Assembly (NCBI RefSeq): GCF_036248275.1
Contig: NZ_CP109181.1
Coordinates: forward strand, 1 to 64,000
From: Streptomyces sp. NBC_01716
GTDB lineage: Bacteria > Actinomycetota > Actinomycetes > Streptomycetales > Streptomycetaceae
Direction of reading: 5' to 3'
Length of the DNA: 64,000 nt
Shown here: positions 18,226 through 63,654 of the stretch, in pieces
How the letters are laid out: each line of letters opens with the position of its first letter
How positions within the stretch are numbered: position 1 is the stretch's first letter
Program-made: the position numbers and the translations under genes
Notes under the pieces: generated by a model
Database searches by the model: none
The model's input: the letters and a program-made list of their open reading frames with translations, nothing else
What the model was told of the DNA's origin: nothing

Positions 18226-21200
18226 CACCGGCAGGCGAGCCGGACTTTGCTTGGGAGCGCGGGACGGCCCGAGTGCTTCATGACGGCCGTCCGGTCGGGG
18301 TGGCGTTCCTGATCCCCGACCGGCTGCTGCTTACGTGTGCCCACGTCGTCGCCTCCACCGCAGGTCTCCCGGACGACGAACCGCTGCCGGACCTTCTTCC
18401 GGTCACGCTCGACTTCCCGTTGCTGCCCGGGCGTCCCAAGGTCACGGCCTCCGTGCGCTTCAGTGTTCCCGTGGCCGGTGACAGCAGCGGTGATGTCGCC
18501 GTCCTGCAGTTGGACGGCGAGCCCCCGCCGGGTTCGGTGCCCCTGCGGATCGTGGAGGCGGAGGACCTGGCGGGGCACCGCTGGCGGGCTTTCGGGTTCC
18601 CGAAGTACCCGGGACGAGGTGGCAGCAAGGACGCCGGGATCTGGACCCGTGGCACCGTCGAGGGCCGCGAGGGTACCGGCTGGTGGCAGCTGACCTGCGA
18701 CGAAGAGGCACCGTTCCCGCTGGCAGGCGGCTTCAGCGGGGCGCCGGTGTGGGACGAGGAATACGGCGGTGTCATCGGTATCGTCGTCGCCGTCGAGGGG
18801 GACCAGAGGCGCCGGACCGGCTACGCCCTCACCGTGGAGTCCCTCACCCGGGAGTGGCCCGAACTGCGCAGAAGGCTGCTGGCGGACAGCCCGTACCGCG
18901 AACTGCTGCCGTTCACCGAGCACGACCGCGCAGTCTTCCACGGCCGCACGAACGAGACGCAGCACCTGGTCGAACTCCTCGATCAGCAGCAGGTACCTGT
19001 CCTTCCTGTGTTCGGATCCTCCGGCGTCGGCAAGTCCTCGCTGGTCGGCGCCGGCCTGCTCGGGCACCTCGACAGCGACCGGTACGTGATCGCCCGCTTG
19101 CCCCACGGGCTGCGTCTCACCGCCGAGGAGCTGCTGGCCTGGGCTCTTGCCTCGGCGGGAGATGCGGACACCATGCAGGCGGGCTGGCACGACCGCTGGT
19201 TGGCGCTGGCCCGGCAGCTCACCGGCGAGCAGGGCATCCGTACCGCGGTGGAGCAGACACTGGCCCGCCACGGCGGACGGTCCCGGCTGGTGCTGGTGGT
19301 CGACCAGTTCGAAACGCTGCTCGCGGACGCGCCCGACACCGCCCGCCGGCTGGACGCCATGCTCGGGGTTCTGACGGCTCGCCGCATGGACGGCAGCCGT
19401 CCCGCCCAGGCCGTGGTCGTCACCCGGATCGACTTCCTCCGGCAGATCGAGCAGCTCCCCCACCTCTGTACGGCGTGGGACGCCACCCCGGTGGTGGTAC
19501 AGCCGATGATGCGGACGCAGCTGCGAGAGGCGATCACCTGCCCGCTGGAGGGGCATGCGGGGGTCCGGTTCGCCGACGGCCTGGTCGAGCAGTTGCTGCG
19601 GGACACCCCACCCGGCCCGGCCGCGCTGCCGATGCTGGAGTACGCCCTGAGCCAACTGTGGGAGCGACAGGAACGCGGGTGGCTGACCACCACCGCGTAC
19701 CAGGAACTCGGTGGCGTGGAGGGGGCCCTGGCGGGAGAAGCGGAACACAGTCTGTGGGACTGGGCGGACGAGGCCGAGCAGCAGGCGCTGGAGCGGATCT
19801 TCATCCAACTCGTACGTCCCGGCGAGCAGCTGGACGCCGGAGAGCGCGGCCCGGACACCCGCCGGGTAGCCGCACGTACCCAGTTCTCCGCAGGCGACTG
19901 GGCATTGATCCACCGGCTTGCCAGCACGCGGCTGGTCGTGGTGACGCGCCGCCCGACGGGGCGGGACACTGCTGAGCTCGCGCATCAGGCACTGGTGGAG
20001 AAGTGGGAGCGGCTGCAACGCTGGGTCGAGGAGAACCGGGAGTTCCGCAGCTGGCAGGAAGGGCTGCGCCGTTCCCTGCGGGCCTGGCAGGAGCAGGGCC
20101 GTCCGCAGGAACTGACCCTGGGCAAGGAGCAGATCGCAGAGGCGCGGCGGTGGATCGGCGCACGCGTCACCGAAATACCCGACGAGGAGGCCGAGTTCGT
20201 CGAGGCCAGTGCCCAGGTCCAGCAGCGTCTCGCCCGTTGGCGCCGCCGGCGCCGCGCGGGCTTCGCCGTACTCACCGCACTTGTCCTCGTTGCGGCGGGC
20301 CTGGCCACCCTCAACGCCCACAGCAGCAACGAGCAGCGGGCCCTGGCCGCCTCTCGGAGCCTGACGGAGCAGAGCCGGCAGCAGGCCAACACCGACCCAG
20401 CCCTGGCGGCTCGCCTCGCCCTTGCAGCTCAGCGCGTCTCCCCGACTCCGGAGACTCGCGCCCAGCTCCTGTCCACGGTTTCCTCACCCTTACGGGCCAC
20501 GCTCATGGGACACACGGCAGAGGTAAGGTCGGTCGCCTTCAGCCCGGACGGCAAGACCCTCGCGACCAGCGGAAACGACGGCACGGCACGACTGTGGGAC
20601 ATGGCAGGGCGCCGGCAGCTGGCTTCACTCGACGGCCACAGCAGCCAGGTGCACACGGCGGCGTTCAGCCCCGACGGCAGGACTCTCGTCACCAGCCACG
20701 GCGGGAAGGTGCGGCTGTGGGACGCCCACACGCGAAAGCAGACCGCTGCCTTGACCGGCGTCCGGAGCCCGGCGGTCTTCAGCCCGGACGGAGACACAAT
20801 CGCCACCAGCGGCCAGAAGGGCAAAGTCCTGCTCTGGGACGCCCGTACCCATCAGAAAATCGACGAACTCCAGGCCCACCGCAACGACGACGGCTGGCCC
20901 TCCCTCCTCGCATTCAGCCCCGACGGCAGGACCCTTGCCGTCACCGTTACCGGCTACGGCACCAGCGACAGCGACAAGTCTGCGGTGCAGCTCTGGGACG
21001 TACGGGAGAAGCGCCGCACCGCCACGCTGAAGGGCCACACGGGTTTTGTCCAGTCGCTGGCGTTCAGCCAGGACGGCAAAACGCTGGCCACGGGGGCGAG
21101 CGACGCCACGACGCGCCTGTGGGACGTGCGCAGCCACCGCCCGCTGGCCACGCTCACCGGACACAGCGGCACCGTGTTCGCCCTGGCCTTCAGCCCGGAC

Positions 21201-22514
21201 GGCCGGACCCTGGCAAGCGGAGGCCAGGACCGCTCCATACGGCTGTGGGACGTGCGGGAGCGCACGGCCGTGACCGTACTGAGCAGCCATACCGGGTCTG
21301 TGGACGCACTCGCGTTCAGCCCGGACGGCGCAATGCTGGCCAGCGGGGCCGGGGATGCCACGGTCCGGCTGTGGGACATGGAGGTCGGGCAGCCGCGCGC
21401 TACCTTCGCAGGGCCAGGCGGTTCGGGAAGCCCGGCGGCCTACAGCTCGAACGGGAAAGTCCTCGCGACCGGTGACGGCGACGGGAGCGTGGACCTGCAC
21501 GACGCCCGTACGCGGCGCACGCTGGGCCGCCTGACCGGGCACGTAGGCAAGGTGAGCTCGGTACGGTTCAGCCCGGATGGGCGGTTCGTCGCCGCGAGCA
21601 GCCATGACAGTCCGGCGGTCCTGCTGTGGGACGTACGCACCCGCCGCCTGCTCGTTTCTCTAGACGGCCACCGCAGCCCTGTGCAGTCCGTGCGCTTCAG
21701 CCCTGATGGCCATACCCTCGCCACCAGCAGTTACATCGACGGGACGACCCGCCTGTGGAGTGTACGGACCCATAGGCAGTTGGCGGCCTTCGCCGGCGGG
21801 GCCGGCTGGATGACCTTCAGCCCGGACGGCAGGATCTTCGTGACCGGCGGCTTCCAGTCCTCTTCCGTACAGCTGTGGGACGCACGGACCCACCGTCGCC
21901 TCGGCACCCTCGACACGGTCACCAAAATGGTCAGCTCCGTAGCCTTCAGCCCGGACGGCAGCACCCTGGCAACAGCGGGCTGGGACGGCAAACTGCGGCT
22001 GTGGGACGTGCAGCACCGCCGCCTCACGGCAACGCTCACGGGCCACACCGACTCCGCGCAGTCGGTGGCCTTCACCCCGGACGGGAAAACCCTCGCCAGC
22101 AGCGGCCGGGACGCCACGGCGAGACTGTGGGATGTACGCACCCACCGCCGCCTCGCCACCCTCAGCGGCCACACCGGCACCATCTGGTCGGCCGTCGTCA
22201 GCCCGGACGGCAAGACCCTGGCAACTACCGGCGACGACCGGGCAGTACGCCTGTGGGACCTTCGGACCTACAGGCAACTGGCCCTGCTCACCGGCCACAC
22301 CGGCGTCCTGCGCTCGGCCCTCTTCGCTCCGGACGGGAACACCCTCACCACCAGCAGCGACGACGGGACCGTACGGCTGTGGGACACCGACGCCTTCAAT
22401 GACCTCGCCACCCTCACCGACAAGGCCTGCGCGATCGCGGGCCGGTCCCTGACCGAACGGGAATGGCACCGCTACATCCCCGACAAGATCGCATACCACC
22501 GGATCTGCCCCTGA
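18222..22514 (+). CDS. Trypsin-like protease / nSTAND1 NTPase / 15 WD40 repeat protein
   Basis: A 1430-residue three-part protein. Residues ~1-215: trypsin-like serine protease with complete triad His in LTCAHVV (~40), Asp in GDVAVLQL (~90), Ser in GGFSGAPVW (~171). Residues ~235-660: STAND NTPase with Walker A GSSGVGKSSL (~267) and Walker B LVLVVDQFE. A basic stretch RRRRR and one transmembrane helix lie at ~683-702. Residues ~760-1410: 15 WD40 repeats (recurring FSPDGxTLA...LWD), enough for two seven-bladed propellers. GTG 18222 overlaps the previous stop. The logic fits a signal-gated protease: the propeller senses, the NTPase oligomerises, the protease is released. One TTA codon lies at 20490-20492. 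Domains are clear; the trigger is unknown. Confidence 0.9.
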   Translation: MTPAGEPDFAWERGTARVLHDGRPVGVAFLIPDRLLLTCAHVVASTAGLPDDEPLPDLLPVTLDFPLLPGRPKVTASVRFSVPVAGDSSGDVAVLQLDGEPPPGSVPLRIVEAEDLAGHRWRAFGFPKYPGRGGSKDAGIWTRGTVEGREGTGWWQLTCDEEAPFPLAGGFSGAPVWDEEYGGVIGIVVAVEGDQRRRTGYALTVESLTREWPELRRRLLADSPYRELLPFTEHDRAVFHGRTNETQHLVELLDQQQVPVLPVFGSSGVGKSSLVGAGLLGHLDSDRYVIARLPHGLRLTAEELLAWALASAGDADTMQAGWHDRWLALARQLTGEQGIRTAVEQTLARHGGRSRLVLVVDQFETLLADAPDTARRLDAMLGVLTARRMDGSRPAQAVVVTRIDFLRQIEQLPHLCTAWDATPVVVQPMMRTQLREAITCPLEGHAGVRFADGLVEQLLRDTPPGPAALPMLEYALSQLWERQERGWLTTTAYQELGGVEGALAGEAEHSLWDWADEAEQQALERIFIQLVRPGEQLDAGERGPDTRRVAARTQFSAGDWALIHRLASTRLVVVTRRPTGRDTAELAHQALVEKWERLQRWVEENREFRSWQEGLRRSLRAWQEQGRPQELTLGKEQIAEARRWIGARVTEIPDEEAEFVEASAQVQQRLARWRRRRRAGFAVLTALVLVAAGLATLNAHSSNEQRALAASRSLTEQSRQQANTDPALAARLALAAQRVSPTPETRAQLLSTVSSPLRATLMGHTAEVRSVAFSPDGKTLATSGNDGTARLWDMAGRRQLASLDGHSSQVHTAAFSPDGRTLVTSHGGKVRLWDAHTRKQTAALTGVRSPAVFSPDGDTIATSGQKGKVLLWDARTHQKIDELQAHRNDDGWPSLLAFSPDGRTLAVTVTGYGTSDSDKSAVQLWDVREKRRTATLKGHTGFVQSLAFSQDGKTLATGASDATTRLWDVRSHRPLATLTGHSGTVFALAFSPDGRTLASGGQDRSIRLWDVRERTAVTVLSSHTGSVDALAFSPDGAMLASGAGDATVRLWDMEVGQPRATFAGPGGSGSPAAYSSNGKVLATGDGDGSVDLHDARTRRTLGRLTGHVGKVSSVRFSPDGRFVAASSHDSPAVLLWDVRTRRLLVSLDGHRSPVQSVRFSPDGHTLATSSYIDGTTRLWSVRTHRQLAAFAGGAGWMTFSPDGRIFVTGGFQSSSVQLWDARTHRRLGTLDTVTKMVSSVAFSPDGSTLATAGWDGKLRLWDVQHRRLTATLTGHTDSAQSVAFTPDGKTLASSGRDATARLWDVRTHRRLATLSGHTGTIWSAVVSPDGKTLATTGDDRAVRLWDLRTYRQLALLTGHTGVLRSALFAPDGNTLTTSSDDGTVRLWDTDAFNDLATLTDKACAIAGRSLTEREWHRYIPDKIAYHRICP

Positions 22515-22990: not shown

Positions 22991-23191
22991 TCGGCTCACG
23001 CGCGCCGTTCGAACTGGGCAACTTGATCATCGCCGAGGACCCTGTTGTCCATACCGCAATTTGATCTCGCCAACACGCGCCGATGCACCCGTGAGCGAGG
23101 CGGCGCCCAGGCGCGGGCGTCAAAGCGCCCTGAGTGGCCGGTAAGGGAGTTGGGGCCACGGCCGACTGCTGATCATGACAGGATGGTGCTC

Positions 23192-23683
23192 ATGGGGGAC
23201 GTAAATCTCGCTTTTGATGACGGCTCGGTGGTGCGCCTGCACCTCACTCCTGCGCTCGAGGACATCTCTGCAATGCCCGAGCGGGGCACAAGCCAGCGCG
23301 AAACCGAAGCGAGCGAACCTCTCGACCTTCCAGCGGACTTCGGATCAGCCCTGCCCGTGAGCGTCAACGAACGTGCGGCGCAGGCCCTCACCCGAGGCGG
23401 CGAAGCGCTCGCCGAGGCTCTGCGTCCTTTGGGCGGCGTGCTTGACGGAATCCACCAGTCGTTCACCGAATCGACCCGGCGGCCGAACGAGGTCACCGTC
23501 GAGTTCGGCGTGACCTTGGGGAGCGATTTCAGCCTCGGGGTCTTCTCGGGGAAGGGTGAGGCGAGTTTCACCGTATCCGCCACCTGGAACTTCACCGACT
23601 CACCGGACGTGCCCGTCCCGGAAGAGCTGCCTTCCCTGAACAGGGCGGCTGCGAACGGGGCGGCTTCTCCCTCCGCGTCGTGA
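23192..23683 (+). CDS. Trypco1-type protein of the VMAP operon
   Basis: A 163-residue protein related to the Trypco1 family: GDVNLAFDDGSVVRLHLTP opens it and NEVTVEFGVTLGSDFSLGVF plus ASFTVSATW (~105-140) form the diagnostic beta-rich part. An inserted helical segment (ERAAQALTRGGEALAEALRP) lies between. ATG 23192 is preferred (GGATGG upstream); ATG 23183 is possible. Its stop is 16 bases before the trypsin-VMAP gene, so it is the first gene of a four-gene operon, the second trypsin/Trypco1 unit within 6 kb. Confidence 0.75.
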   Translation: MGDVNLAFDDGSVVRLHLTPALEDISAMPERGTSQRETEASEPLDLPADFGSALPVSVNERAAQALTRGGEALAEALRPLGGVLDGIHQSFTESTRRPNEVTVEFGVTLGSDFSLGVFSGKGEASFTVSATWNFTDSPDVPVPEELPSLNRAAANGAASPSAS

Positions 23684-23699
23684 CGGAAGGCTGTACCGG

Positions 23700-25832
23700 G
23701 TGATCCCTTCCACTCACAGTGACGCGGCACTTCGCCGGTCGTTCGTGTCCGTCCAAGGGCAGAAAGAGTTCGTCGGCGCTGGCGTTCTGATCTCTAACTC
23801 CCTGGTCCTCACCTGTGCCCATGTCATCAACAGCGCATTGGGACGACACCGTTTCGAAGACTCTGTACCGGGACAGGGGAACGTCGTCCGGTTACGGATG
23901 CCCCATGTGGCCGCAGACCGGGAGTTTTTCGGACGTGTCGAACAGGCGATGTGGCGTCCGCCGCGGGCACATCCTTCGCCCCAGAGAGGTCACGCGGAGA
24001 CCGCAGGCAAGTTTCCGTTTCCGTATTTCGGCGACCTGGCTGTGCTCAGACTCGCCGAGCCCCCTCCCGACGGTGCGGAGCCGGCGCCCTTTCTTCCAGA
24101 GCGGGACGGGCACTCCGTCATAGCGCTATGGGCCAGCGGCCATCCCGCAACGACCATTACCGCAACGCCGCGTGCGGTAGCTGAGCCCTGGATCGTGCTG
24201 GACGTCGACGCAGGCGAGGCCCGGGAAGGACACAGCGGTGGGCCGCTCTGGGATCGAGACCGCGAGGCCGTCGTCGGGATCGTGGTCGCCACACACGTGG
24301 ACGCGCCCGGCAAGAGCCCGGTGGCACGGTGCCCGCTGTACGCGATCGGCCTGCCCGCCATCGAGGCCGAGCTGCCGGACCTTCCACCGGTCGAGGTGCC
24401 CACAGCAGGACAGGGCCGGCAGCAGACGCTGGCCGCCCTGGAAAGGCTTTTGCCGGGCACTCAGGCCGTCCTGAAGTGTGAGGTCAGGCTGTCCGCCAAG
24501 CTTGGCAGGGAGTCCATCCATCAGGCAGCGGATCATCACCGGTTGCTTACCCTCGCCGTCGGCGTGCGACGCGGCGTGCCGGAACTGCTGGAAGTGGTCC
24601 GGGAGTACCTGATGGACACCGGCGCCCTCGGTTCCTCGGACGAAAAGGCCGCCTGGGACCGACTCCTGCGCGCGGCACGTGTGGTCAGCCCGAGGGAGAC
24701 GCTCACGGCGCAACAGCGGCGTGAACTGGTCGGCCTTCTCACCCAGTGCCGTGAGACCGACCCCGAGGATCTGCTGCGTGCCGTACTCCCGTACGCCGAC
24801 GAGTTGCCGTTGGTCTCTGGACTGATGGACGTCACTGACCTCCTCGAGGGGTACCCGTCCGACAACCGGTTGATGCCGCCGCTCCTCCAGGCAGTTGTCC
24901 GAATCAGCCTTGCAGAGCACTCCGTTGGGAATCCTCTGTCGGAGGAACTGGACGCCTGGGTCGACAGGGTGGCACCGCGGCTGGGAATACCTGAGGCCGC
25001 CGTCTACCAGTTCCGCGACGACATCCGTCCGACTCCCTGCGGCGGTCCCGCTGAGACCGCCGCAGCGTCTCCCCGCATCCAGGTCGAGTTGCTGCCCATC
25101 GCCCCCGGGCATCGCTTCACCTATCAGATATGGGTCTATAGCGGTGCCGACCGCCACGAGCTCGTCCTAGTGCAGGACTCGGAGGTATCCAGCGAGCAGG
25201 TAGTCGAAGGCGTCAGAGCAGTGCTGCGCACCAAGGTGCACGAGCACACGGATCAGGCTCTGGTGGAGTTCTTCCTGGCACCTCCTTGGCTGCGGCTCGA
25301 CGTGGACACCTGGCATCTGAGGGGAAACGAAGAAGACGGCGACTTCTACCTGGGTATCAACCGTCGGGTCGTCCTGCGAAGTTCCGGACGGACGCGGGAC
25401 ACCTACGCCGGGTGGAAGCGGCGCACCAAAGCACTCCCGTTGTCCCGGCCTATCGTCCTCGACCAGCGCTCGGCACGCCCGGGCGTTGCCCAGGCGCAGC
25501 TCGAGGCGGTTCCGAACGCCGGCGTCGTCATCATGTGCTGCGAGCAGCAGCACCAGAACCAGGTGCTCCGGCAATGCCTCCAGGCGGGTGTGCACACCGT
25601 CCTGTGGCACCGGCAGGACCACGACACCGAGACAGCCAAACGGCTGCTCGAACTGGTGGAAGGCATCAGCCACACGAAGCTGCCGGAGACGGTACGGCTG
25701 GAACGGGCCAAAGCCCTGGCCGACCCCGACTGCCCGACCCACCACGGGCGTCGGCTTTCACTCCTGTACGACGGGCCGGACCACAGACCGCCACCGTTTG
25801 CTCCTGATGCCTGGGCCCTCACCCAGCCCTGA
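23700..25832 (+). CDS. Trypsin-like protease fused to VMAP C-terminal domain
   Basis: A 710-residue protein. Residues ~10-220 are a trypsin-like protease with His in LTCAHVI (~40), Asp in YFGDLAVLRL (~111) and Ser in GHSGGPLW (~178). Residues ~235-455 are helical, with an EAD-like section. Residues ~460-710 are the vWA-MoxR-associated protein C-terminal (VMAP-C) domain: QVELLPIAPGHRFTYQIWVY, PPWLRLDVDTW, GGPDHRPPPF-type ending. VMAPs are the central switch of ternary vWA-MoxR-VMAP conflict systems; here the N-terminal effector is a protease. GTG 23700 follows GGAAGG. Codon 65 (23892-23894) is TTA. It is followed after 24 bases by the MoxR gene. Confidence 0.88.
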   Translation: MIPSTHSDAALRRSFVSVQGQKEFVGAGVLISNSLVLTCAHVINSALGRHRFEDSVPGQGNVVRLRMPHVAADREFFGRVEQAMWRPPRAHPSPQRGHAETAGKFPFPYFGDLAVLRLAEPPPDGAEPAPFLPERDGHSVIALWASGHPATTITATPRAVAEPWIVLDVDAGEAREGHSGGPLWDRDREAVVGIVVATHVDAPGKSPVARCPLYAIGLPAIEAELPDLPPVEVPTAGQGRQQTLAALERLLPGTQAVLKCEVRLSAKLGRESIHQAADHHRLLTLAVGVRRGVPELLEVVREYLMDTGALGSSDEKAAWDRLLRAARVVSPRETLTAQQRRELVGLLTQCRETDPEDLLRAVLPYADELPLVSGLMDVTDLLEGYPSDNRLMPPLLQAVVRISLAEHSVGNPLSEELDAWVDRVAPRLGIPEAAVYQFRDDIRPTPCGGPAETAAASPRIQVELLPIAPGHRFTYQIWVYSGADRHELVLVQDSEVSSEQVVEGVRAVLRTKVHEHTDQALVEFFLAPPWLRLDVDTWHLRGNEEDGDFYLGINRRVVLRSSGRTRDTYAGWKRRTKALPLSRPIVLDQRSARPGVAQAQLEAVPNAGVVIMCCEQQHQNQVLRQCLQAGVHTVLWHRQDHDTETAKRLLELVEGISHTKLPETVRLERAKALADPDCPTHHGRRLSLLYDGPDHRPPPFAPDAWALTQP

Positions 25833-25856
25833 ACACACATGCCAAGGAGAGCGACC

Positions 25857-26867
25857 GTGTCGCACAGCTCAGTGCCCGAGCACGACCCCAGCGCGGCAAC
25901 CGAGGACTGGTGGGTGTTCCGTGGACCGGCCGAACTGCCCGCTCCGCCACCGTGGCGAAGCCTCTCCGGATCGCCGCGGACTCCGACGGCCCAGCAGTAC
26001 CTACTGGGCCCGGAACACGTCGCAGTCGTCAACGCCGCACTCCACCTGCGCCGCCCTCTGCTGGTAACTGGGCGTCCCGGTACCGGCAAAAGTTCCCTCG
26101 CCCATGCCATCGCCGAAGATCTGGAACTGGGTGACGTACTGCGCTGGCCGGTCAACAGCCGCTCGACGCTGACGGACGCCCTCTACCGCTACGACGCCGT
26201 GGGCCGACTGCGCGAGACTACGCTGGAGCGCGAGACACGAGCCACGCGTGACGCTTCCAGGAAATTGAGGCATCGCACCAAAGGCCGCCGATCGGGCATC
26301 GGCGACTTCCTGCGACTCGGCCCGCTGGGCACGGCACTCGCTGCCACAGATCGCCCCCGAGTACTGCTCATCGACGAGTTGGACAAGGCCGACATCGATC
26401 TGCCGAACGACCTCCTCGTAGTACTGGAGGAGGGAGCGTTCGAGATCCCCGAACTCACGCGGCTTCCCGAGGACCAGCAGAGCGTCGACGTGCTGGTCAC
26501 CGGCAGCAGGGAACGTGCCAAGGTGCACCGCGGAACCATGTCGTGCAGCCACTTTCCGATCGTGGTTATGACCAGCAACGGAGAACGAGACTTCCCCCCG
26601 GCCTTCCTCCGTCGCTGTGTGCGCCTCGATCTGCCGGACCCGGACGAGGAGAAGCTCCGCGACATCGTCCGCCTCCACCTTGGAGCCGAGGCGCTCGCCG
26701 ACGCCGAGGACCTCATCCAGAACTTCCTGCAGAGAGCGGCCGTGCAGACCCTTGCCACCGATCAGCTCCTGGCCGCAGTTCACCTGCGCGTCACGGGAGC
26801 CGATCTGAGCCGCGAGCAGCTGATCAACGCCGTCATGCACCGTCTCGACGAGGCTTTCCCGGCGTGA
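25857..26867 (+). CDS. MoxR-type AAA+ ATPase of the VMAP system
   Basis: A 336-residue AAA+ ATPase: Walker A GRPGTGKSS (~73), Walker B LLIDELDKAD (~172), sensor-1 region VVMTSNGERDFPPAFLRRC (~240) with the arginine finger pair, and a C-terminal lid. MoxR ATPases work with vWA proteins to remodel or activate partners; with a VMAP protein upstream and the vWA protein downstream, this is the energy module of the ternary system. The real start is GTG 25857, because AAGGAGAG lies 6 bases before it; an ATG at 25839 overlaps that site. The stop overlaps the next start (GTGA). Confidence 0.9.
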   Translation: MSHSSVPEHDPSAATEDWWVFRGPAELPAPPPWRSLSGSPRTPTAQQYLLGPEHVAVVNAALHLRRPLLVTGRPGTGKSSLAHAIAEDLELGDVLRWPVNSRSTLTDALYRYDAVGRLRETTLERETRATRDASRKLRHRTKGRRSGIGDFLRLGPLGTALAATDRPRVLLIDELDKADIDLPNDLLVVLEEGAFEIPELTRLPEDQQSVDVLVTGSRERAKVHRGTMSCSHFPIVVMTSNGERDFPPAFLRRCVRLDLPDPDEEKLRDIVRLHLGAEALADAEDLIQNFLQRAAVQTLATDQLLAAVHLRVTGADLSREQLINAVMHRLDEAFPA

Positions 26868-29800
26868 TCGACCGACTGCGAGGGGTCCTGGACGGTCTCG
26901 GCTACCCGCTCGGCGGCGAGGAGCTCCTGGACGTCCTCCTCCTGGCCCGTGTCATAGGAGGAGCCCGGACAGGAGCGGGCGACGCGACGGCGCCGGATCC
27001 GGCGGAGGCCGAAGAGGCCGGACCCCAGGCCGACGATGTCGGGCAGATAGACGATGAGCAGGGCTTCGACCCGACAGGTTCCGGACCTGCCCCCACGAGC
27101 CCGACGGAACAACCAGCAACGGGGCGACGCCGGTTCCTCCTCCCCGACAGCAGGACAGCCCAACCCGCCACCGGAACGGCCGCTCGTGCCGTGCGTGTCC
27201 CGGGTCCTCGGGCCTTGCCCGGAGCACACAACCTGGCCCGTTCGCTCCGACCCCTGCGCCAGCACCGGGATCACCTGCATCGGAAGGTCGTCGATGTGGA
27301 GGCCACCGTCAGGCTCACCGCGGAATCGGGCACCCTCGACGTGGTGCTGCGCCCCGAGCGAGAGCTGTGGCACGCAGCCGTACTCCTGGTCGACGACTCT
27401 GCGTCCATGCGCGTGTGGCGGTCACTGGTGCCAGAACTCGGCGGCCTGCTGGTACGCAGCGGCGATTTCCGCACCGTCCACGTCAGCAGATTCACCCCGC
27501 AGAAGCTAAGCCCCCGGCACCACAGGAACGGTGCCGGGGTATCGGTCACCTTCCTGCTGACGGACGGCGTTCATCCGGCCTGGACTAGCCCTGCGACAGC
27601 CGCCGCCGTCGCAGCCTGGGGAGCACGTGGGCCCGTCGCGGTTCTCAACCCGTTGCCGCAGCGCCTGTGGCGCGCCACGAGGTTTCAGCCGCAGCCGCAC
27701 CTGCTCAGGGCAACCAAACGCTTCCCGACTACAGATCAGGTTCTGATGCTGGACCCCTTGACAGGTGAACGGGCGGAAGTCGTTTCGGACCGACTATCTC
27801 TGCCGGTGCTCGCCCTGTCGCCGTCCTCGCTGGCGTCGTGGGCGCAGCTGCTGACCGGGCCCGCCGTCCCCCACCTCGTCGAGGCAACAGCACTGGGGGC
27901 TCCGAGCGCCGGGGCGGCGGAAGCGGGACCTGCCCCGGCGACCGTACCGCCGGACCGGCTGATCGCCGTGTTCCGGGGGTCCTTTTCCCCGCAGGCCTAC
28001 CGTCTGGCAGTTCGGCTTTCCGCGATCAGGCCCCTCAGCCCGCTCCTGATGCAACTCGTCCGCAGTGCCACCCTTCCCGAGGCCACCTCGGCACACGTCG
28101 CCGAGGTGCTGCTCGGGGGACTGCTGGAGCGTCTCGACGACGAGCAAACGCTCGAAGGGTTCCCGGAATCGCTGCGTAGAGACGGCCTCTACGACTTCCG
28201 GCCCGGTGTACGGGAACTCCTGTCCAGTGCGCTCAGCAGGACACAGACCCAAGAGATCACCGAGGCCGTGGGCCGAGCCCTCGAGCCGTACCTCGGCCGG
28301 CTGCCGGACTTCTCCGCGCTCATGGCCGATGCCTCGGGAACAATCAGACTGTCGGACGAGGCTTCGCCCTTCGCGGTGGTGGCCGGCCCCACCACCCAGG
28401 ACAGAACCCACGGCAGGCCGCCGTCCAACGCTGCAAGCACACCGGCCAGTGTCCGGGAGATGTCCGCGGCATCCGGCGCGGCCCTGCTGCGGGCGTCCGC
28501 AGGAGCGGTCGCCGCCGACGCACGGGACGGTTCGCTGTTCCTACTCCTCAGCGACCGCTACGTCCGTGCATTCGGACACAGGCCAGCTTCTTCGCAGATC
28601 CGAGCCTGGGAAAGAGGTCTTCCCGCATTGGCGGGATGCCTGATCGACGCCGGACTCTCCGAGGTCGAGATGCTCGTTGAGTTCACCCTGCCGATGAACA
28701 GCAGACGAATAGACGTGATCCTGTCCGGTCTGGACCCCGTCCGCTCGGCTCCGTCCTATGTGCTCGTCGAGTTGAAACAGTGGACTGTGGCCAGACCGGA
28801 CACGAACGATCCGGCTCTGTGCTCTGCCGGCACCGACACGTTCCTCGTCCTCAACCCCATCGACCAGGTACAGCGCTACCGCGAGTACCTGGTCAAGTTC
28901 AACAGCCTGCTGGCAAGGCACCCGGAAAGCGTCAGCGGGGCCGTCTACCTGCCCAACGCCACCGAGGCCGGAGTGGACGGGCTGCGGGACATCGAACACG
29001 AGGACGGAAGCCAGTTGTTCACCGGTGAACACCGGGCGGAGTTCCTCACGTACCTGCGTGGGCGGTTCAACAGCGGACGTTCGGAAGCAGAAGCGGCCGA
29101 CCAACTCCTCCTGGCCAAGCTCCTCCCCCCGAGCAAGCTGACGGCTGTCGCGGCCCAGGAAATGGAGGAAGGGCAGTTCACCCTCCTGGACGAACAACAG
29201 ATCGCCTATCGCACGGTTCTCAACGCAGTACGGAAGGCACAGCACTCCGCTCACAAAGAAGTCGTCGTCATCACCGGGGGCCCCGGGACCGGCAAGAGCG
29301 TGATCGCACTCCACCTGCTGGGCGAGCTGTACCGGCAGGGCGTACCGGCCCTGCATGCCACCGGCTCGCAGTCGCTCACCAAAACCCTGCGCAAGGCCGC
29401 AGGCAGCCGCAAGCGTGAAGTGCAGGACCTCTTCAAGTACTTCAACAGTTTCATGGCGGCCCAGGAGAACTCCCTCGACGTTCTGATCTGCGACGAGGCC
29501 CACCGAATCCGCGAGACCTCCGCCAACCGCTACACCCGGGCCTCTTTGCACACCGGACGCCCACAGATCGATGAACTCATCGACGTGGCACGTGTCCCCG
29601 TCTTTCTCCTCGACGAGCACCAAGTGGTGCGCCCCGGCGAGATAGGCACCGTGGCGGAGATCGTGGGGGCGGCCGGGAGGAAGGGGCTACCGTTCCGGGT
29701 CGTAGCGCTGGACAGCCAGTTCCGCTACGGCGGCAGCGACGTCTACCTGAACTGGGTGGTGCGTCTCCTCGGGCTGGAGGCGAGCGGGCCCACGCTCTGG

Positions 29801-31726
29801 AAACCGGACGGCCGGATGCAACTCCTCGTTGCCGACAGCCCGGAGGAGATGGAGGCGTTCCTGGAAGACCGCCGAAGCGAAGGGTACGGTGCCCGCATGA
29901 CCGCGGGCTATTGCTGGCCCTGGTCGCCGGAGCCCAGGCCGGGCGACCCCCTTCCTCTGGACGTGATGATCGGTGGCTGGGCCCGCCCATGGAATCTGCG
30001 CGGTGACCGTTCGGTGTCCGGGGCGCCTCCTGCCGCGCTGTGGGCCACCGATCCGGCCGGATCCGGTCAGGTGGGCAGCATCTACACGGCGCAGGGCTTC
30101 GAGTTCGACTGGAGCGGAGTCGTCATCGGGCCCGACATGGTTTGGCGAGGCGATCGATTCGTCACTGACCGGAAGTCTTCCAAGGATCCTGTGCTCGGGC
30201 GCACAGTGGCGGACGAGGAGGCGGACCGGCTAATCCGCAACACCTACAAGGTTCTGCTGACACGGGGCATGGCGGGGACTGTCGTCTACTCGACGGATGC
30301 GGAGACGCGTGCGAAGTTGCTCGAGCTGGGTGGTCGGGCACTGGGCGCGCACAGTCCCCGGACCGAGAAATTCGAGCAGCTCAAGACCGTGCGGCCGGAC
30401 CAGGGCGAGTGGCGGACCACCCGTACGGGCAGTACCGCTCCCTTCACCCCGGCCCCGCGTTCCGACTGGGATGCGTACCCCGCACTCAGCGATCTCTTCC
30501 CCTGGGGGAGCCTAGGCGTGGCCACGCACCGGGGATGGGTCGTGTCGCCGGGCAAGCAGATCCTGGAGCAGCGCTGGAACCAGCTCATCGGCGAAGAGGA
30601 TCCCGCGGTCAAAGCCGAGCTGTTCAAGGAGACGAGGGACCGATCCACGGACAGAATCCGGGGCGGGCTGCCCGGTCGTTCCTCGCACGGCGTGCCGATC
30701 AGCCAAGAGACCTCCACGCTCGCGGAAGTCGTGCGCATCGGCATGCGCAGCTTCGACCGGCAATGGCTGGTCGCCGACGATCGTGTCATCGACCGGCCGC
30801 GCCCAGCGCTCTGGGCGGCATTGCAGTCAGGTCAGGTCTTCCTCAACCAGCCATCGGGGCATCCGATCGAATCCGGGCCTGCTGTCGTCGCCACCAGCCT
30901 CCTCCCGGACATGCACCATTTCAACGGGCGAGGTGGCCGGGTGCACCCCGTCCTGCACCCGGACGGCACCAGTAACGTCCCACCGCGGCTGCTGCCGGTC
31001 CTCTCGGCCCACCTGAATCACAGCCGGGTGAGCGCCCAGGATGTGGCCGCGTACGTCGTGGCGGTAGCCGGGCACTCCGGTTTCACCGAGCACTTCCAGG
31101 AAGAGCTCCTCACTTCGGGCGTGCGGGTGCCTCTGACCCGCAACCCCAGGCTCTGGGAAGCGGCCGTGCGCCTCGGCGAGGAGGTGCTGTGGGCATCCAC
31201 CTACGGCGAGGTGTGCTTCGACTCAACTTCCGGACGTCACCAGGCCTCCGTCGCCTACGAGCCCGGTGACGCCCGGAGGGTCAGGTGTCTGGCACCCGTC
31301 GGTGACAACGTCCCGGGCGATATGCGCTATGACGCGGACACCCAGACCCTTCACGTCGGTCACGGTGCCTTCGGGCCGGTGCCTGCCGAGGTGTGGTCCT
31401 ATGACGTGGGCGGAATGAACGTCCTCAAGAAGTGGTTCGGTTACCGCAAGGCGCGGCCGGACAACAGGAAGACGAGCCCACTGGACGACATCCACGTGAG
31501 GCGGTGGCCCGACGAGTGGGGCGTCGAACTCATCGACCTGCTCACAGTGCTCCGCCGACTAATGGAGATCGCCTACACGCAGAGGGCGCTGCTCCACCGC
31601 ATCCTTGCGGAAGCCATGGTGACGGACGCGGACCTCACCCAGGCAGGAGTCCTCCCTGTGGACGACAAGGCCCGCACACCGCGTCAGCCAGTCTCCCCGA
31701 AGGTGTTCGAGCCGAACGGTGAGTAG
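26864..31726 (+). CDS. vWA / PD-(D/E)XK nuclease / DUF2075 helicase / type ISP specificity-domain fusion
   Basis: A 1620-residue multidomain protein. Residues ~1-540: SAV_2336-type vWA region with MIDAS VDDSASM (~175) and a short Arg/Pro-rich linker. Residues ~560-760: nuclease-like domain (RIDVILSGLD then VLVELKQW at ~634, D...ExK). Residues ~790-1230: DUF2075/Schlafen-like superfamily 1 helicase with Walker A ITGGPGTGKSV (~806), ICDEAHRIRE (~876) and YTAQGFEFDWSGVVIGPDM. Residues ~1345-1610: C-terminal DNA-specificity domain of type ISP restriction enzymes (LLaBIII class), seen in FNGRGGRVHPVL, NVPPRLLPVL, DVAAYVVAVAGHSGFTEHF, KKWFGYRK, SPLDDI. No methyltransferase domain is present. Start GTG 26864 overlaps the MoxR stop by 4 bases. 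It likely recognises and cleaves DNA under control of MoxR/VMAP. Confidence 0.85.
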   Translation: MIDRLRGVLDGLGYPLGGEELLDVLLLARVIGGARTGAGDATAPDPAEAEEAGPQADDVGQIDDEQGFDPTGSGPAPTSPTEQPATGRRRFLLPDSRTAQPATGTAARAVRVPGPRALPGAHNLARSLRPLRQHRDHLHRKVVDVEATVRLTAESGTLDVVLRPERELWHAAVLLVDDSASMRVWRSLVPELGGLLVRSGDFRTVHVSRFTPQKLSPRHHRNGAGVSVTFLLTDGVHPAWTSPATAAAVAAWGARGPVAVLNPLPQRLWRATRFQPQPHLLRATKRFPTTDQVLMLDPLTGERAEVVSDRLSLPVLALSPSSLASWAQLLTGPAVPHLVEATALGAPSAGAAEAGPAPATVPPDRLIAVFRGSFSPQAYRLAVRLSAIRPLSPLLMQLVRSATLPEATSAHVAEVLLGGLLERLDDEQTLEGFPESLRRDGLYDFRPGVRELLSSALSRTQTQEITEAVGRALEPYLGRLPDFSALMADASGTIRLSDEASPFAVVAGPTTQDRTHGRPPSNAASTPASVREMSAASGAALLRASAGAVAADARDGSLFLLLSDRYVRAFGHRPASSQIRAWERGLPALAGCLIDAGLSEVEMLVEFTLPMNSRRIDVILSGLDPVRSAPSYVLVELKQWTVARPDTNDPALCSAGTDTFLVLNPIDQVQRYREYLVKFNSLLARHPESVSGAVYLPNATEAGVDGLRDIEHEDGSQLFTGEHRAEFLTYLRGRFNSGRSEAEAADQLLLAKLLPPSKLTAVAAQEMEEGQFTLLDEQQIAYRTVLNAVRKAQHSAHKEVVVITGGPGTGKSVIALHLLGELYRQGVPALHATGSQSLTKTLRKAAGSRKREVQDLFKYFNSFMAAQENSLDVLICDEAHRIRETSANRYTRASLHTGRPQIDELIDVARVPVFLLDEHQVVRPGEIGTVAEIVGAAGRKGLPFRVVALDSQFRYGGSDVYLNWVVRLLGLEASGPTLWKPDGRMQLLVADSPEEMEAFLEDRRSEGYGARMTAGYCWPWSPEPRPGDPLPLDVMIGGWARPWNLRGDRSVSGAPPAALWATDPAGSGQVGSIYTAQGFEFDWSGVVIGPDMVWRGDRFVTDRKSSKDPVLGRTVADEEADRLIRNTYKVLLTRGMAGTVVYSTDAETRAKLLELGGRALGAHSPRTEKFEQLKTVRPDQGEWRTTRTGSTAPFTPAPRSDWDAYPALSDLFPWGSLGVATHRGWVVSPGKQILEQRWNQLIGEEDPAVKAELFKETRDRSTDRIRGGLPGRSSHGVPISQETSTLAEVVRIGMRSFDRQWLVADDRVIDRPRPALWAALQSGQVFLNQPSGHPIESGPAVVATSLLPDMHHFNGRGGRVHPVLHPDGTSNVPPRLLPVLSAHLNHSRVSAQDVAAYVVAVAGHSGFTEHFQEELLTSGVRVPLTRNPRLWEAAVRLGEEVLWASTYGEVCFDSTSGRHQASVAYEPGDARRVRCLAPVGDNVPGDMRYDADTQTLHVGHGAFGPVPAEVWSYDVGGMNVLKKWFGYRKARPDNRKTSPLDDIHVRRWPDEWGVELIDLLTVLRRLMEIAYTQRALLHRILAEAMVTDADLTQAGVLPVDDKARTPRQPVSPKVFEPNGE

Positions 31727-32004
31727 TCGGCGGCCCCGCCGGACGAGTCCCTCGGCAACGTCCGAGCCTGGGACCGTTCTACGACATCCCCTGAGCGTCC
31801 TTCGGCCAGCTCGAAGGTCACGTGGGTGAGGAAGAAGCACGGCGCGGTACAGACGTCCAGGAAGACACCAAGGACCATCACCCCGCTGTCGCTACGTCTG
31901 TTTAGGGTGTGCGGGCCACATGATCTTGGTGGTGCTCTAGGTTGTGCGGGTGTCCCGGTGGTGTGTGCTGCCGGGGCCTCGTACGTCCTGGGTGGAGTTG
32001 GATC
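31727..32004. other. Boundary between conflict island and RiPP cluster
   Basis: 278 bases with no gene and more relaxed base composition. The AMP-rich stretch near 31900 may hold the promoter of the MFS gene. This marks the junction between two functionally unrelated blocks. Confidence 0.35.
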
Positions 32005-33324
32005 ATGTGCAAGGTGTCGCCGCGTTCGGGTTCTTCGTCGGCGCCGGTGCCGCGTGTGGGATGGTCCGCTCGGCTGCGAGCTGCCGGTGCGCCGCTCTCG
32101 GTCCGTTCGTACCGGCTGCATTTCGCGGCGCGGATGCTGTCGTGGACAGGGTCGGCGGTCAGTTCGATCGGGCTGGCGTTCGCTGTGCTCTACATTGGCG
32201 GCGGCGCGACCGGGCTCGGTCTGGTGCTCGCGGCGGGGATCGCTCCGCAGATTCTGCTTCTGCTGGTGGGCGGGGTGGTCGCGGACCGCTGGTCCCGCGC
32301 TCGGGTGATGGTGTGGACGAACGCCGTCTCGGCGCTCGCGGAGGCCACTGCGGCGGTCCTGCTGTTCACCGGGTCCGCGCAGGTGTGGCACCTGGTGGCG
32401 ATGGCGACTGTTTGCGGCGCCGCGAGCGCGTTCTTCACCCCGGCGGCCGGCGGGGTCGTCGTGGATGTCGTTCCGGCGGAGATGCGGCACGCCGCGAACG
32501 CGCTGCTGAAGCTGGGGCAGAACACGGTGAAGGTCGCGGGTCCGGCTCTGGGTGGCGTACTGGTGGCGGTCGTCGGGCCGGGCTGGGTGATCGGCTGGGA
32601 TGCGCTCACATTCGCCGCTGCCGCCGTGCTGTGCGCGCGGATGGGTCTGGGCCCGGCGCGGGCAAAAGTCCGGAGGGGGTTCGTGGCCGATTTGCGGGAG
32701 GGCTGGGCGGATTTCCGCTCGCGTCGCTGGCTGTGGGTGATGGTCCTTCAGGGTTCGGTGGTCGTGCCGGTGTGGCTGGTGGGTTACCAGATGCTCGGCC
32801 CTGTCTACGGCGAACGGATCCTGGGCGGCCCTGAGTTGTGGGGGGTGGTTGTCTCCGGCTTCGCGGCTGGGCTCTTGGCGGGGGCGGCTGTCGCGCTGGT
32901 GTGGAAGCCGCGTCTGGTCGGCGTCGTGGTGTGTCTGGGTACTGGCTGCATGGGCCTGCCGCTGGCCTCAATGGGCGCGCGGGCGCCGTTGGCGGTGCTG
33001 GTGGCCGCCGTGGTGGTGGCCGGCGCGGGGCTCGCGGTGAGCATGACCGCGTGGTCGGGTCTGGTTCAGGAGCGGATTCCGGCGGACCGTTTGTCGCGTG
33101 TCCTGTCCTGGTCGACGCTGGGGCAGTTGGTGCCGGTGCCGGTCGGCTACCTGGCGGCCGGGCCGCTCGCAGGCACGTTCGGGATGCGGAAAGTTCTCGC
33201 GGCCGGCGCCGTGATGGTCGCGGTGGCGGTCGTCGTTCCGCTGCTGATGCGTCAGGTGCGGACGCTGACGCTCGCCCCGCCACCAGCTTTGCCTGCCGAG
33301 GAGTTGGCGACGGCGCCGAGGTAG
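32005..33324 (+). CDS. MFS efflux transporter next to the RiPP cluster
   Basis: A 439-residue major facilitator protein with about 12 hydrophobic helices. It shows the MFS signature GGVVADRWSRARVMVWTNAV after TM2 and belongs to the EntS/MFS_3-like efflux group (LHFAARMLSWTGSAVSSIGL at the start; later the conserved LVQERIPADRLSRVLSW). Start ATG 32005 has GGTGGAG upstream; the frame is open earlier with Cys-rich non-protein sequence. It converges on the TfuA gene and overlaps its 3' end by 73 bases. It is a plausible exporter or self-resistance pump for the RiPP product; it resembles the MFS at 41452, so they may be exchanged or paralogous. Confidence 0.85.
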   Translation: MCKVSPRSGSSSAPVPRVGWSARLRAAGAPLSVRSYRLHFAARMLSWTGSAVSSIGLAFAVLYIGGGATGLGLVLAAGIAPQILLLLVGGVVADRWSRARVMVWTNAVSALAEATAAVLLFTGSAQVWHLVAMATVCGAASAFFTPAAGGVVVDVVPAEMRHAANALLKLGQNTVKVAGPALGGVLVAVVGPGWVIGWDALTFAAAAVLCARMGLGPARAKVRRGFVADLREGWADFRSRRWLWVMVLQGSVVVPVWLVGYQMLGPVYGERILGGPELWGVVVSGFAAGLLAGAAVALVWKPRLVGVVVCLGTGCMGLPLASMGARAPLAVLVAAVVVAGAGLAVSMTAWSGLVQERIPADRLSRVLSWSTLGQLVPVPVGYLAAGPLAGTFGMRKVLAAGAVMVAVAVVVPLLMRQVRTLTLAPPPALPAEELATAPR

Positions 33325-34622
33325 AACGTCCGGGCTGCTTCCACGGCTCCGGCGAAGTCGCGGAATGCACGGTCGCGAGCGGCGGCGTCGCGGACCGGCC
33401 GGTCGGCGTCCCGCGCGAGATGCCAGCGGTCGAGCAGATGGGCAGCGATCCGGTCTGGTGCCAGGTGGGCGGTGCTGTGCAGGGGGTTCGCCGCCTCGGT
33501 GGCCGCGTTGAGGCGAAACGCCTCCTCGACCGCCGTGGCCGTGGGCAGTTCCGGGTTGATCAGGTCCCCGGCGTCTCGAAGTGACGTGGGCCAGATCGTC
33601 CACGCTCCGTCGAGCCGTGCGGAGCGGACCATCACGCGCATCAGCATCTCCCGCTCGTCGAGCGTGTGGCGCTCATGCTCGGTCAGCCAATGGGCGAGTT
33701 GAACAGGAGACAGGGCATTCGGGATGAGGCCCGCCTCGGCCGCCGCCCCCAACGCCGCTTCGGCAGTTCCTGAGCTCTCCCGTGTGGTGCTGGTTTCCGC
33801 GATGCGGGCCAGGACCCTCCTGTGCCACCGGGCCCCGAACTCCAAGTCGTAGAGCTGCTGGTGCGTCAGGTGCGCGAGGAAGGGCGCACCCGTACCGGGG
33901 GTTGTCCGGTGGGCTGCTTCCCAGTACCGCACGAAGCTGGTCCGCCACGGCTCATGGCACCACCCGCTCGTATCCGCCGATCCCGGTGTGCGCAGGGCCA
34001 GCGTGCGCAGGGCCTCTTCGGCGTCCTCTCGTTTCTGATCCCACGGGTGCGCGAGGCGCCAGGCGTTGGCGCGGCCGTATGCCTCACGCAGCCCGGCACC
34101 GTCGGCGGCGCGGGCCAGCGCGTTCCAGGAGCGGCGTGGGTAGGGCAGGGCCCGGGCGAGGTCGGCGAGTGCATGAGCCTCGGCGGTGGTGACCCGGCCG
34201 GCCCCGGCGGCGCGGTGCAGGGCCGTGCGCAGGTTCACCAGGGCGTGTGAGAGTGCCTGTCCGTCAGGGCCCTGGACGACGGCTACCTCGTCGTCCGCGT
34301 CCAGGACACCGTCGCGGTAGGCGCGGAAGACGGCGCCGATCCCGAGCATGCCGAACGGTTCGAGTTCGGCGGCGCGCAGGGCTCCCATGCTCGCGGCGCC
34401 TACGACGGCGATTCCTTCGGCCAGGAGCATCAGGATTTCCTTGTGCCGGACAGGGGCGCTCTGGTGCCACAGGCCATCGATGATCAACACTGTCTCGCCC
34501 GGGGCGAGTTGCTGACGTAAGAGGTCGCCGTGCCGGACCGGCGGATGGAGGCAGGCGGAGGGGAGAAGTTCGCTTACCCGGGCGGCGGGGATGGTGGGTC
34601 CGGCGAACACGTGCACGCTCAT
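33252..34622 (-). CDS. TfuA-domain protein, partner of YcaO
   Basis: A 456-residue protein. Residues ~1-215 are the TfuA core: HVFAGPTIPAARV, PPVRHGD, TVLIIDGLWHQSAPVRHKEI (~45-65), GAASMGALRAAEL (~75) and YRDGVLDADDEVAVVQGP. The remaining ~240 residues are helical and not recognised. TfuA proteins work with YcaO enzymes to make backbone thioamides, probably by delivering sulfide. The ATG overlaps the YcaO stop by 4 bases, so the pair is coupled. Its last 73 bases overlap the convergent MFS gene. Confidence 0.88.
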   Translation of the reverse strand: MSVHVFAGPTIPAARVSELLPSACLHPPVRHGDLLRQQLAPGETVLIIDGLWHQSAPVRHKEILMLLAEGIAVVGAASMGALRAAELEPFGMLGIGAVFRAYRDGVLDADDEVAVVQGPDGQALSHALVNLRTALHRAAGAGRVTTAEAHALADLARALPYPRRSWNALARAADGAGLREAYGRANAWRLAHPWDQKREDAEEALRTLALRTPGSADTSGWCHEPWRTSFVRYWEAAHRTTPGTGAPFLAHLTHQQLYDLEFGARWHRRVLARIAETSTTRESSGTAEAALGAAAEAGLIPNALSPVQLAHWLTEHERHTLDEREMLMRVMVRSARLDGAWTIWPTSLRDAGDLINPELPTATAVEEAFRLNAATEAANPLHSTAHLAPDRIAAHLLDRWHLARDADRPVRDAAARDRAFRDFAGAVEAARTFYLGAVANSSAGKAGGGASVSVRT

Positions 34623-35792
34623 CGGTCGGCCGCCGTGCGTCGGGGGACGGTGTGCCGGGCGTCGTAGCGCAGGCGGGGCGCGATCACTTTGACCACGGCG
34701 AACTCCTCACGCGTGTATGGGCCCCAGGTCAGATCGACGGCGAGGGGCGGGATGCCGGTGGCGGCCGTGACGCACGCGGCCAGGTGCGCGGCCGTGCCGG
34801 TGTCGGTGGTGTGCGTCGTGGTGTAGCGGGCTGCTGTGTCCGGCCACGCCACCAGGGGTGCGGGTGAGGTGGCGGGCGGGCGGGAGCCGTACGCTGGCGC
34901 CGGCTCGGTGAACGGCGGGGTGGGTGTCCTCGCGGCTGCCGGTGATCAGGGTGAGCCGGGACTGGGCGGCCTCGGTGATCGCCCGCGTCAGTGCGACCGC
35001 GGGATCAGGGTGGGCGCCCGAGCCGGCGACGAGGACGGCCGCCTGGTCCTCGCGCCACAGGTGGCAGCACATCACCGGCACGCCGAACCGGTTGGGCCGG
35101 CAGGTCAGTTCCACCCATACCCGGGCCCGCCGCAGCCGGTCGACCAGGACCGCGGGCTCGCCGTCGACGGTTGCAGGGTCGATCAGCTCTACCCGGCCGC
35201 CAGCGCGGGGGACGGTGCTGAGGACGTCGCGCTCGATGACCTCGGCCAGGCCGTGCGCCAGCGCTTCGGCGCGGGTGTTGCCGGACGCGAGGCCGTTGGT
35301 CGACGCACTGGGCAGATGCAGGCGCCAGTCGTCGTGCTCCTGCCGGCCGAGCCGCACCGCCGCGGCGGGCACCGGCACCACGGCGCCGTCGACGGTGGAG
35401 CGGGCCGTGATCCAGTCCAGTCGTGTCCGGTCCGTCGCCAGAGCGCCCGCGTGCTGTTCCAACTCGCCCACCGAGTAAGGCAGACCAAGGTCGGCAGCCG
35501 GGACGCGCCGGATGTCGGCGGGTGGCACGGCTTGTTCCGCGTGCCAGACCTCCAGGGCCTCCATGGCGCCGGAGACGCGTGCCGCGTCCAGGCTCATGCC
35601 TTTGCCCTGCGCGACGGACAGGGTCCGGGACAGCGGGCGTACGACCATCGTGACGGGGATTCCGAGATCGTCGAGGCCGGTTACGTCGGCGACGCGGGTG
35701 ATGCCGTAGGCGGGGAGCAGTGGCTTGATGGCCTGCCATGTCCGGGCCGGGGGGAGGGTGCGGTGGGTGCCGTCGAAGAGAGCCGTACGCAT
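34619..35792 (-). CDS. YcaO-domain peptide thioamidation/cyclodehydration enzyme, one frameshift
   Basis: YcaO enzymes activate a backbone amide with ATP; with TfuA they make thioamides. Seen from the start at 35792 (GGGAGG upstream): SGAMEALEVWHAEQ (~72), NGLASGNTRAEALAHGLAEV then IERDVL (~165-190, the ATP/Mg site), and RAITEAAQSRLTLITGSRED (~290). After that motif the frame derails at a CCCC/GTG run around 34915-34925. In the next frame the natural C-terminus follows at once (PPFTEPAPAYGSRPP..., then PLAVDLTWGPYTREEFAVVK) and ends at 34619 on the TfuA ATG. A 1-base indel (true mutation or sequencing error) is the simplest explanation; corrected length ~390 residues. No C-terminal PxPxP is present, as expected for TfuA-type YcaO. 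Confidence 0.85.
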
Positions 35793-44171: not shown

Positions 44172-44204
44172 GGCAGGTCAGGTCCTTCCAGTTGATCGGT
44201 GATG

Positions 44205-53913: not shown

Positions 53914-53954
53914 CTGCTGAACCGCGGTCCGGCCCTCGGTGCCACCGGTCCCGG

Positions 53955-56797: not shown

Positions 56798-56804
56798 CCG
56801 TACA

Positions 56805-63650: not shown

Positions 63651-63654
63651 GCAG

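Follow-up and report, generated by a model that had tools for sequence, protein, structure and literature searches.

We describe a four-gene operon in a stretch of 64,000 nucleotides (the window) at one end of the chromosome of Streptomyces sp. NBC_01716 (contig NZ_CP109181.1, positions 1 to 64,000; the source genome is designated G000). Encoded in order on the forward strand are a Trypco1 protein (trypsin co-occurring domain 1), a VMAP protein with a trypsin-like peptidase domain, a MoxR-type ATPase and a 1620-residue vWA-type fusion protein (P0001), whose C-terminal arm consists of a predicted nuclease, a Schlafen-type helicase and a methylase-stripped target recognition domain (TRD). Our preferred reading, held tentatively and with a probability of roughly 0.4, is that this arm is a restriction effector which would be held off by the VMAP-type switch and not by methylation. 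By domain content the operon is a VMAP ternary system (the vWA fold of its last protein not being settled) and not a Type ISP restriction enzyme, since the methylase and the superfamily 2 (SF2) motor of that class were looked for and not found. The new part is the arm with its slot for exchangeable ends, not the switch.

Based on Pfam and NCBIfam profiles, the domains called in an earlier, sequence-only reading of the window (Trypco1, trypsin-VMAP-C, MoxR, SAV_2336, a DUF2075-type helicase and a Type ISP C-terminus) were recovered, as were the positions and close coupling of the four genes (Table 1). The helicase matched the Schlafen-group-3 (SLFN-g3) family PF09848, which we take to be the former DUF2075, with 292 bits against a cut-off of 24; an overlapping match to the SF2-type ResIII was weak (7.3e-5), and the best VIA folds for the motor were UvrD-type superfamily 1 (SF1) helicases. 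Between the SAV_2336 region and the helicase, the motif R-x-D617...E636-L-K638 and a fitting order of predicted helices and strands suggest a PD-(D/E)XK nuclease. This region gave no Pfam nuclease match and no Mrr family match, and Foldseek and VIA searches with a nuclease-helicase model are silent on the nuclease fold, all their matches being taken up by helicases. Within the SAV_2336 region, residues resembling a metal ion-dependent adhesion site (MIDAS), D177-x-S179-x-S181 and T233-D234-G235, were invariant across six aligned Type ISP fusions.

The Type ISP part, earlier estimated at about 260 residues, was found to comprise 458 (1163–1620). Its structural match to the Type ISP specificity domain, on which the earlier reading had been staked, was obtained: an AlphaFold2 (AF2) model and a VIA match both support the TRD fold. 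The proposed lack of a methyltransferase (MTase) was likewise upheld, with no MTase family detected in a Pfam scan of the fusion protein; moreover, homology to the methylase P0032 begins at residue 643 of the latter, past its Pfam MTase matches (319–589). With 63.5% identity over 458 residues, and by its place in the tree described below, the tail derives from nuclease-methylase-TRD enzymes. As five relatives among the matches listed are 67–93% identical over the whole length, P0001 is not a chance open reading frame.

What follows the helicase varies between relatives, which were drawn from the best 120 of 246 matches in one protein search and the best 120 of 1706 in another. Among these listed matches the Type ISP tail is carried by P0001, P0006, P0007, P0009, P0010 and P0011, and also by P0008, a protein of 983 aa that begins within the nuclease and is either a remnant or a gene-calling artefact. 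Of these, P0006 belongs to S. griseoluteus, P0009 to S. mirabilis and P0011 to Streptomyces sp. RPA4-2. A second tail (tail 2), the C-terminus of Eco57I/MmeI-like methylases of about 1840 residues, was listed in P0012, P0013, P0018 and P0023 and at loci L009 and L010; in P0013, P0018, L009 and L010 it shares 68–70% identity with P0126. P0014 ends in an Mrr nuclease. A UvrD helicase tail was recognised by Pfam in P0016 and by tail similarity in P0015, P0017, P0019–P0022 and P0024–P0026 (among the same matches), and P0027, P0029 and L011 have no tail after the helicase. The Mrr and UvrD tails keep catalytic-looking motifs, by eye, and the four kinds of tail all resemble parts of defence enzymes in PADLOC (REase_MTase_IIG, mREase_IV and GajB-like).

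In a tree of 57 of the 93 Type ISP tails (7 fusions and 50 of the 86 others), the fusions formed one clade (support 100/99) near P0031–P0035, with a weakly supported sister group (80/31). The tail-2 fusions were also one clade apart from their donors (100/99; 45 of 121 rows, with 5 fusions and 40 of the 116 others). As far as sequence relationships tell, the slot after the helicase has been filled twice by methylase C-termini. Furthermore, in a tree of the shared chassis (approximately 1150 residues, 24 rows) the Mrr-tailed P0014 grouped with P0009 (96/96) among the Type ISP fusions, and carriers of UvrD tails were interleaved with carriers of methylase-derived ones, from which it follows that tails were exchanged on one backbone. 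A stretch of 33 residues in P0014 aligns to the linker of P0009 with a score of 73, the best of 2000 shuffles reaching 46 (0/2000 as good), and is likely the scar of a lost Type ISP tail.

The sequence-only reading expected the operon to be conserved as a unit. This holds for the four genes, which recur in the same order in Streptomyces sp. ADI95-17 (L009) and S. iakyrus (L010) with identities of 64% for Trypco1, 69–70% for VMAP, 82–83% for MoxR and 60–63% for the vWA protein; it does not hold for the tail, which is tail 2 in both, the Type ISP version of the operon being seen only in G000. Tail and operon therefore vary apart. Sharing with the window ends with the helicase and the flanks differ, except that the neighbouring system gives a weak cross-match through its trypsin part (29.6%). 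The MoxR gene also adjoins the vWA gene at L009, L010, L011 and L127. That the Type ISP fusion might be common was rejected: the helicase-TRD junction gave an end-to-end match only in G000, which was 1 of 392 genomes of the genus (117 of them had some match, 116 on one side of the junction) and 1 of 199 relatives, the two samples overlapping. The vWA-nuclease junction was likewise confined to G000 among 394 genomes of the family, where 21 matched at 1e-60, the rest of them on the nuclease side.

The nuclease-helicase chassis also exists without the switch. Of the 80 genome loci that best matched residues 535–1160, 77 encode proteins without vWA, mostly open frames of 635–760 codons with helicases 74–81% identical; the 77 include L045, L063 and L078, with frames of more than 900 codons whose N-terminal part was not covered. 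These SLFN-g3 (DUF2075) proteins share with the fusion the nuclease motif and the closely similar helicase, but differ from it in having no vWA match and no tail found. The chassis weakly matches the PADLOC candidate PDC-S41 (E 7.4e-18); AbiO and Nhi are counted with the same group. A second, diverged gene of the same kind stands alongside in 42 of the 77 loci; in these (within L013–L088) a gene of about 660 codons lies beside a diverged one of about 740 codons, an arrangement suggestive of a two-gene system. In P0028 the chassis helicase is joined to NACHT; in P0036 and P0061 it is joined to proteins that match vWA weakly (31–32%) and have a precomputed PF00931, presumably NB-ARC; one of these two is probably the protein at L127. 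From such domain combinations we consider that several types of switch use the SLFN-g3 motor. A 2025 preprint, named in the reference list of a BREX paper, is said to deal with bacterial Schlafens in anti-phage defence.

Among known systems, the nearest are the vWA-MoxR-VMAP ternary systems, with which the operon has in common a VMAP-C protein that bears a trypsin-like domain and is accompanied by Trypco1, a MoxR gene, and a vWA-type component whose C-terminal domains vary. The 2020 eLife survey (163 architectures, 1482 systems), in the part available to us, places effectors C-terminal of the vWA domain, among them restriction endonucleases (REases; NaeI, Mrr and a new clade) and SF2 helicases of restriction-modification (R-M) type (PMC7159879). 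A DNA-cutting module in this position is therefore not new in kind. The helicase is different, as the survey's superfamily-I helicase comes with PIN and its R-M helicases are SF2, and the accessible main text holds nothing on Schlafen, DUF2075, ISP, specificity, methylase or methyltransferase (PMC7159879). With the Type ISP enzymes LlaGI/LlaBIII and DrdV-like nuclease-methylase-TRD enzymes the fusion shares a C-terminal TRD, but compared with LlaGI/LlaBIII it was found without a methyltransferase, has an SF1 Schlafen-g3 motor instead of an SF2 one and carries an N-terminal vWA-type switch part. Open-access main texts, as far as seen, included none in the vWA-MoxR/VMAP literature mentioning Schlafen or Type ISP, none joining SAV_2336 with Streptomyces, DUF2075 with Schlafen or anti-phage, or Type ISP with MoxR, and none on PF18135. 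A 2026 BREX paper treats a target recognition domain, MoxR and vWA, in the part consulted without Type ISP or DUF2075 (PMC12839542).

If the arm is an effector, an invader would be sensed by the VMAP/MoxR pair, MoxR would remodel the vWA part, and the trypsin-like VMAP domain, with Trypco1, would free or activate the C-terminal arm; the TRD would then load the arm onto DNA, where the SF1 motor would move and the nuclease cut, the host being spared as long as the arm is kept shut off. Each step of this course, from sensing and proteolytic release to DNA loading and cleavage, is conjectural, as is a role in defence; the first part parallels the ternary model, in the available part of the survey, of a sensing VMAP, an ATP-dependent change driven by MoxR and release of effectors by the peptidase (PMC7159879).

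Several observations, in this paragraph and the two that follow, weigh against such an effector. The vWA fold, which the sequence-only reading expected profiles to show together with SLFN-g3 (PF09848) and Type_ISP_C, gave no Pfam match in the 1620-aa protein, the other two being found, and operon context for the Type ISP version is known from G000 alone. Moreover, 9 of 25 vWA-fused relatives have a broken nuclease motif, against 2 of 125 without vWA (intact in 16/25 and 123/125; Fisher P 1.1e-6, kinship not corrected); the 25 exclude P0001, whose motif is intact, and one of the two losses among the 125 is P0012, probably a truncated vWA protein. Cutting is therefore excluded as a function constant throughout the family. 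P0010, itself a Type ISP fusion, has its nuclease Glu replaced by Ala with helicase and tail kept, and is, by its sequence, probably nuclease-dead. The helicase residues K811, D877 and E/D878 are kept in all 25, so that the motor is constant and the nuclease dispensable in some fused forms. Another possible explanation, which we regard as somewhat unlikely, is that the vWA arm is the sensor: the nuclease-helicase with its TRD or other tail would detect foreign DNA, or the tail would serve as a bait for anti-restriction proteins of phages, and the signal would pass via MoxR to the VMAP peptidase as effector. Apart from the broken nucleases and constant motors, the likeness of all four tails to defence-enzyme parts speaks for it, as does a 2024 PNAS paper which, in the part seen, proposes the same order for VMAP systems diversified by diversity-generating retroelements (DGRs), with the vWA protein as sensor and the N-terminal VMAP peptidase as effector (PMC10907252). 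The nuclease motif intact in the window protein and 16 relatives, the catalytic-looking Mrr and UvrD tails and the eLife survey, which assigns sensing to VMAP and effectors to vWA (PMC7159879), speak against it. The earlier contrast with known systems, said to carry their effector on VMAP, accordingly comes closer to the 2024 paper than to the survey, which puts effectors, REases included, on vWA. Overall, the intact nuclease here and the DNA-enzyme tails suit the effector, and the broken nucleases of relatives suit the sensor.

The DNA-reading loops of the tail bear on how specific the arm may be. Residues 1222 and 1350 are altered in all six aligned fusions though constant in 26/26 methylase-bearing enzymes (alignment A4, 26 of 86 such proteins). 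The first corresponds to N1228 of LlaGI, a residue in contact with the base at +4 (PMC4872093, in part), the numbering (chain + 164) being our own reading via the catalytic Asn. All six fusions keep 100 of the 140 positions that are 95% conserved among methylase-bearing enzymes. When the loops were tested, two of the 128 conserved positions proved to be lost in all six, both among the 16 within loops IV–VI (hypergeometric P 0.015, rising to 0.03 when the threshold is set at 85% and to 0.17 at 80%); the loop limits were hand-set from a HMMER alignment, and the sequences compared are related to one another. The changes fit an altered or relaxed target site, the statistic being weak. In LlaGI, the bases at positions -1 and +1 are read by the methylase loops I–III, which also close the clamp (PMC4872093, in part); a TRD on its own may therefore bind weakly or recognise a half-site, a further difficulty for restriction by the arm. 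One could also suppose that the TRD serves as a clamp on DNA or as a steering piece, which keeps the helicase-nuclease on DNA and makes it processive with little specificity. The missing methylase half of the clamp, the two altered loop residues and the use of the same slot by UvrD and Mrr tails, not known as site readers, would suit this; we nevertheless find it unlikely, given that methylase C-termini entered the slot on two occasions and that so many conserved positions were retained in all six fusions.

A cognate methylase beside the operon was rejected, as the Type ISP tail was the sole match of P0032 and P0126 in tblastn searches of the window. In G000 no P0032-like methylase and no full-length donor-family methylase was found, and the P0126 type gave one weak match at 3996967 (E 1.3e-6), outside the tail; in G075, which has a tail-2 fusion, no methylase of the tail-2 donor type was found. 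These absences rest on similarity to two proteins, and an unrelated methylase could guard the site. In addition, G777 (L010) has, alongside its tail-2 fusion, a separate, diverged donor-family methylase of 1797 aa. Both points trouble the idea of an arm restrained by the switch and leave a small probability for methylation-gated restriction, in which an unlinked methylase would protect the TRD site and the operon would be a split R-M enzyme under a switch. P0018 (a tail-2 fusion) and P0192 (a full donor-type methylase), which come from the same source, each with a longest contig of 36401 bases, and may thus lie on one contig, would be in keeping with it, and the negative searches in G000 and G075 argue the other way. 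Elsewhere in G000, a Type_ISP_C match at about 7.05 Mb (L007:5566-6837, C1) was rejected as a full enzyme; it is a free-standing TRD of 423 aa with Type_ISP_C as its sole Pfam match and no methylase seen alongside.

The genes of the operon are separated by 16 nt and 6 nt, followed by a 4-nt GTGA overlap (Table 1). Trypsin_2 (PF13365; 4.7e-10), VMAP-M0 (1.3e-7) and VMAP-C (PF20028; 3.4e-37, above cut-off) were detected in the VMAP protein. Its peptidase motifs CAHV, GDLAVL and G(H/Y/F)SGGP, to which we presumptively assign the catalytic triad, are retained at L009 and L010. The MoxR gene reached only 0.0017 with the bpMoxR model, below cut-off, and its Walker motifs were recognised by eye.

Table 1. 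Genes of the operon and features of the fusion protein, in window coordinates
Feature	Position	Strand	Basis or remark
Trypco1 protein	23192..23683	+	PF19493, E 5.2e-16; ATG picked by eye
VMAP protein: trypsin-like peptidase, VMAP-M0, VMAP-C	23700..25832	+	PF13365, PF19916, PF20028
MoxR-type AAA+ ATPase	25839..26867	+	AAA_5 PF07728, E 2.6e-8
vWA-type protein, 1620 aa	26864..31726	+	GTG start; 4-nt overlap with MoxR
SAV_2336 N-terminal region with MIDAS-like motifs (residues 19-478)	26918..28297	+	NF041121 (NCBIfam SAV_2336_NTERM), E 8.9e-99
Predicted PD-(D/E)XK nuclease domain (residues 535-770; D617, E636, K638)	28466..29173	+	Motif, predicted secondary structure
SLFN-g3 SF1 helicase (residues 798-1145)	29255..30298	+	PF09848, E 7.6e-87
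Captured Type ISP C-terminus without methyltransferase (residues 1163-1620)	30350..31723	+	63.5% identity to P0032 residues 643-1099
Type_ISP_C specificity domain (residues 1210-1559)	30491..31540	+	E 4.9e-76
H1222, loop IV position	30527..30529	+	Asn in 26/26 aligned methylase-bearing enzymes; LlaGI N1228
M1350, loop VI position	30911..30913	+	Thr in 26/26 aligned methylase-bearing enzymes

The operon lies inside the terminal inverted repeat: window positions 23000–31800 recur with 100% identity at 8640818–8649618, at the other chromosome end, and positions 44001–64000 are likewise duplicated at 100% near the opposite end of the 8.67-Mb contig. This setting among transposase pieces, the rarity of the Type ISP fusion and the shortened P0008 could indicate a decaying, non-functional passenger of the chromosome end, which we hold to be very improbable in view of four open reading frames, intact catalytic motifs wherever inspected and the five full-length relatives mentioned above. 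No plasmid record covered 80% of the 1620-aa protein, although 56 matched some part of it, and at the DNA level only 13% of the operon was matched, in two records. DDE_Tnp_1 transposase pieces with equal scores lie at 5439–5861 and 14231–14653 and an ISAZ013-type transposase in two pieces at 62611–62982 and 63159–63587, which gives the region the look of a mobile chromosome end. Just upstream of the operon (17872–22514) there is a second conflict-type pair, a Trypco1 protein (117 aa, E 1.8e-23) and a 1438-aa nSTAND1/WD40-repeat protein with an N-terminal trypsin-like motif seen by eye. Directly 3' are genes for a major facilitator superfamily (MFS) transporter (31942–33324), TfuA (33252–34622) and YcaO (34707–35792), where a peptide-modification cluster may begin. 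A second VMAP operon of the same genome (L008:1019-7947, C1, approximately 2.75 Mb) has, after a MoxR-like gene, a 1021-aa gene without Pfam match at 0.001.

R-M enzymes require a methylase to spare their host. A broader and rather doubtful proposal, less probable in our view than the effector reading itself, is restriction without modification: the switch would have repeatedly taken methylase specificity ends onto a Schlafen-type nuclease-motor, with self and non-self set by the switch and the tail serving as a plug-in target setter. Should a specificity domain without its methylase prove to work under an alarm switch, this would be a separate solution to self-protection. One chassis that ends in either of two captured TRDs, in an Mrr nuclease, in a UvrD motor or without any tail provides a ready comparison set, and with it a disputed point becomes testable, namely the role of the vWA component in VMAP systems, as effector or as sensor.

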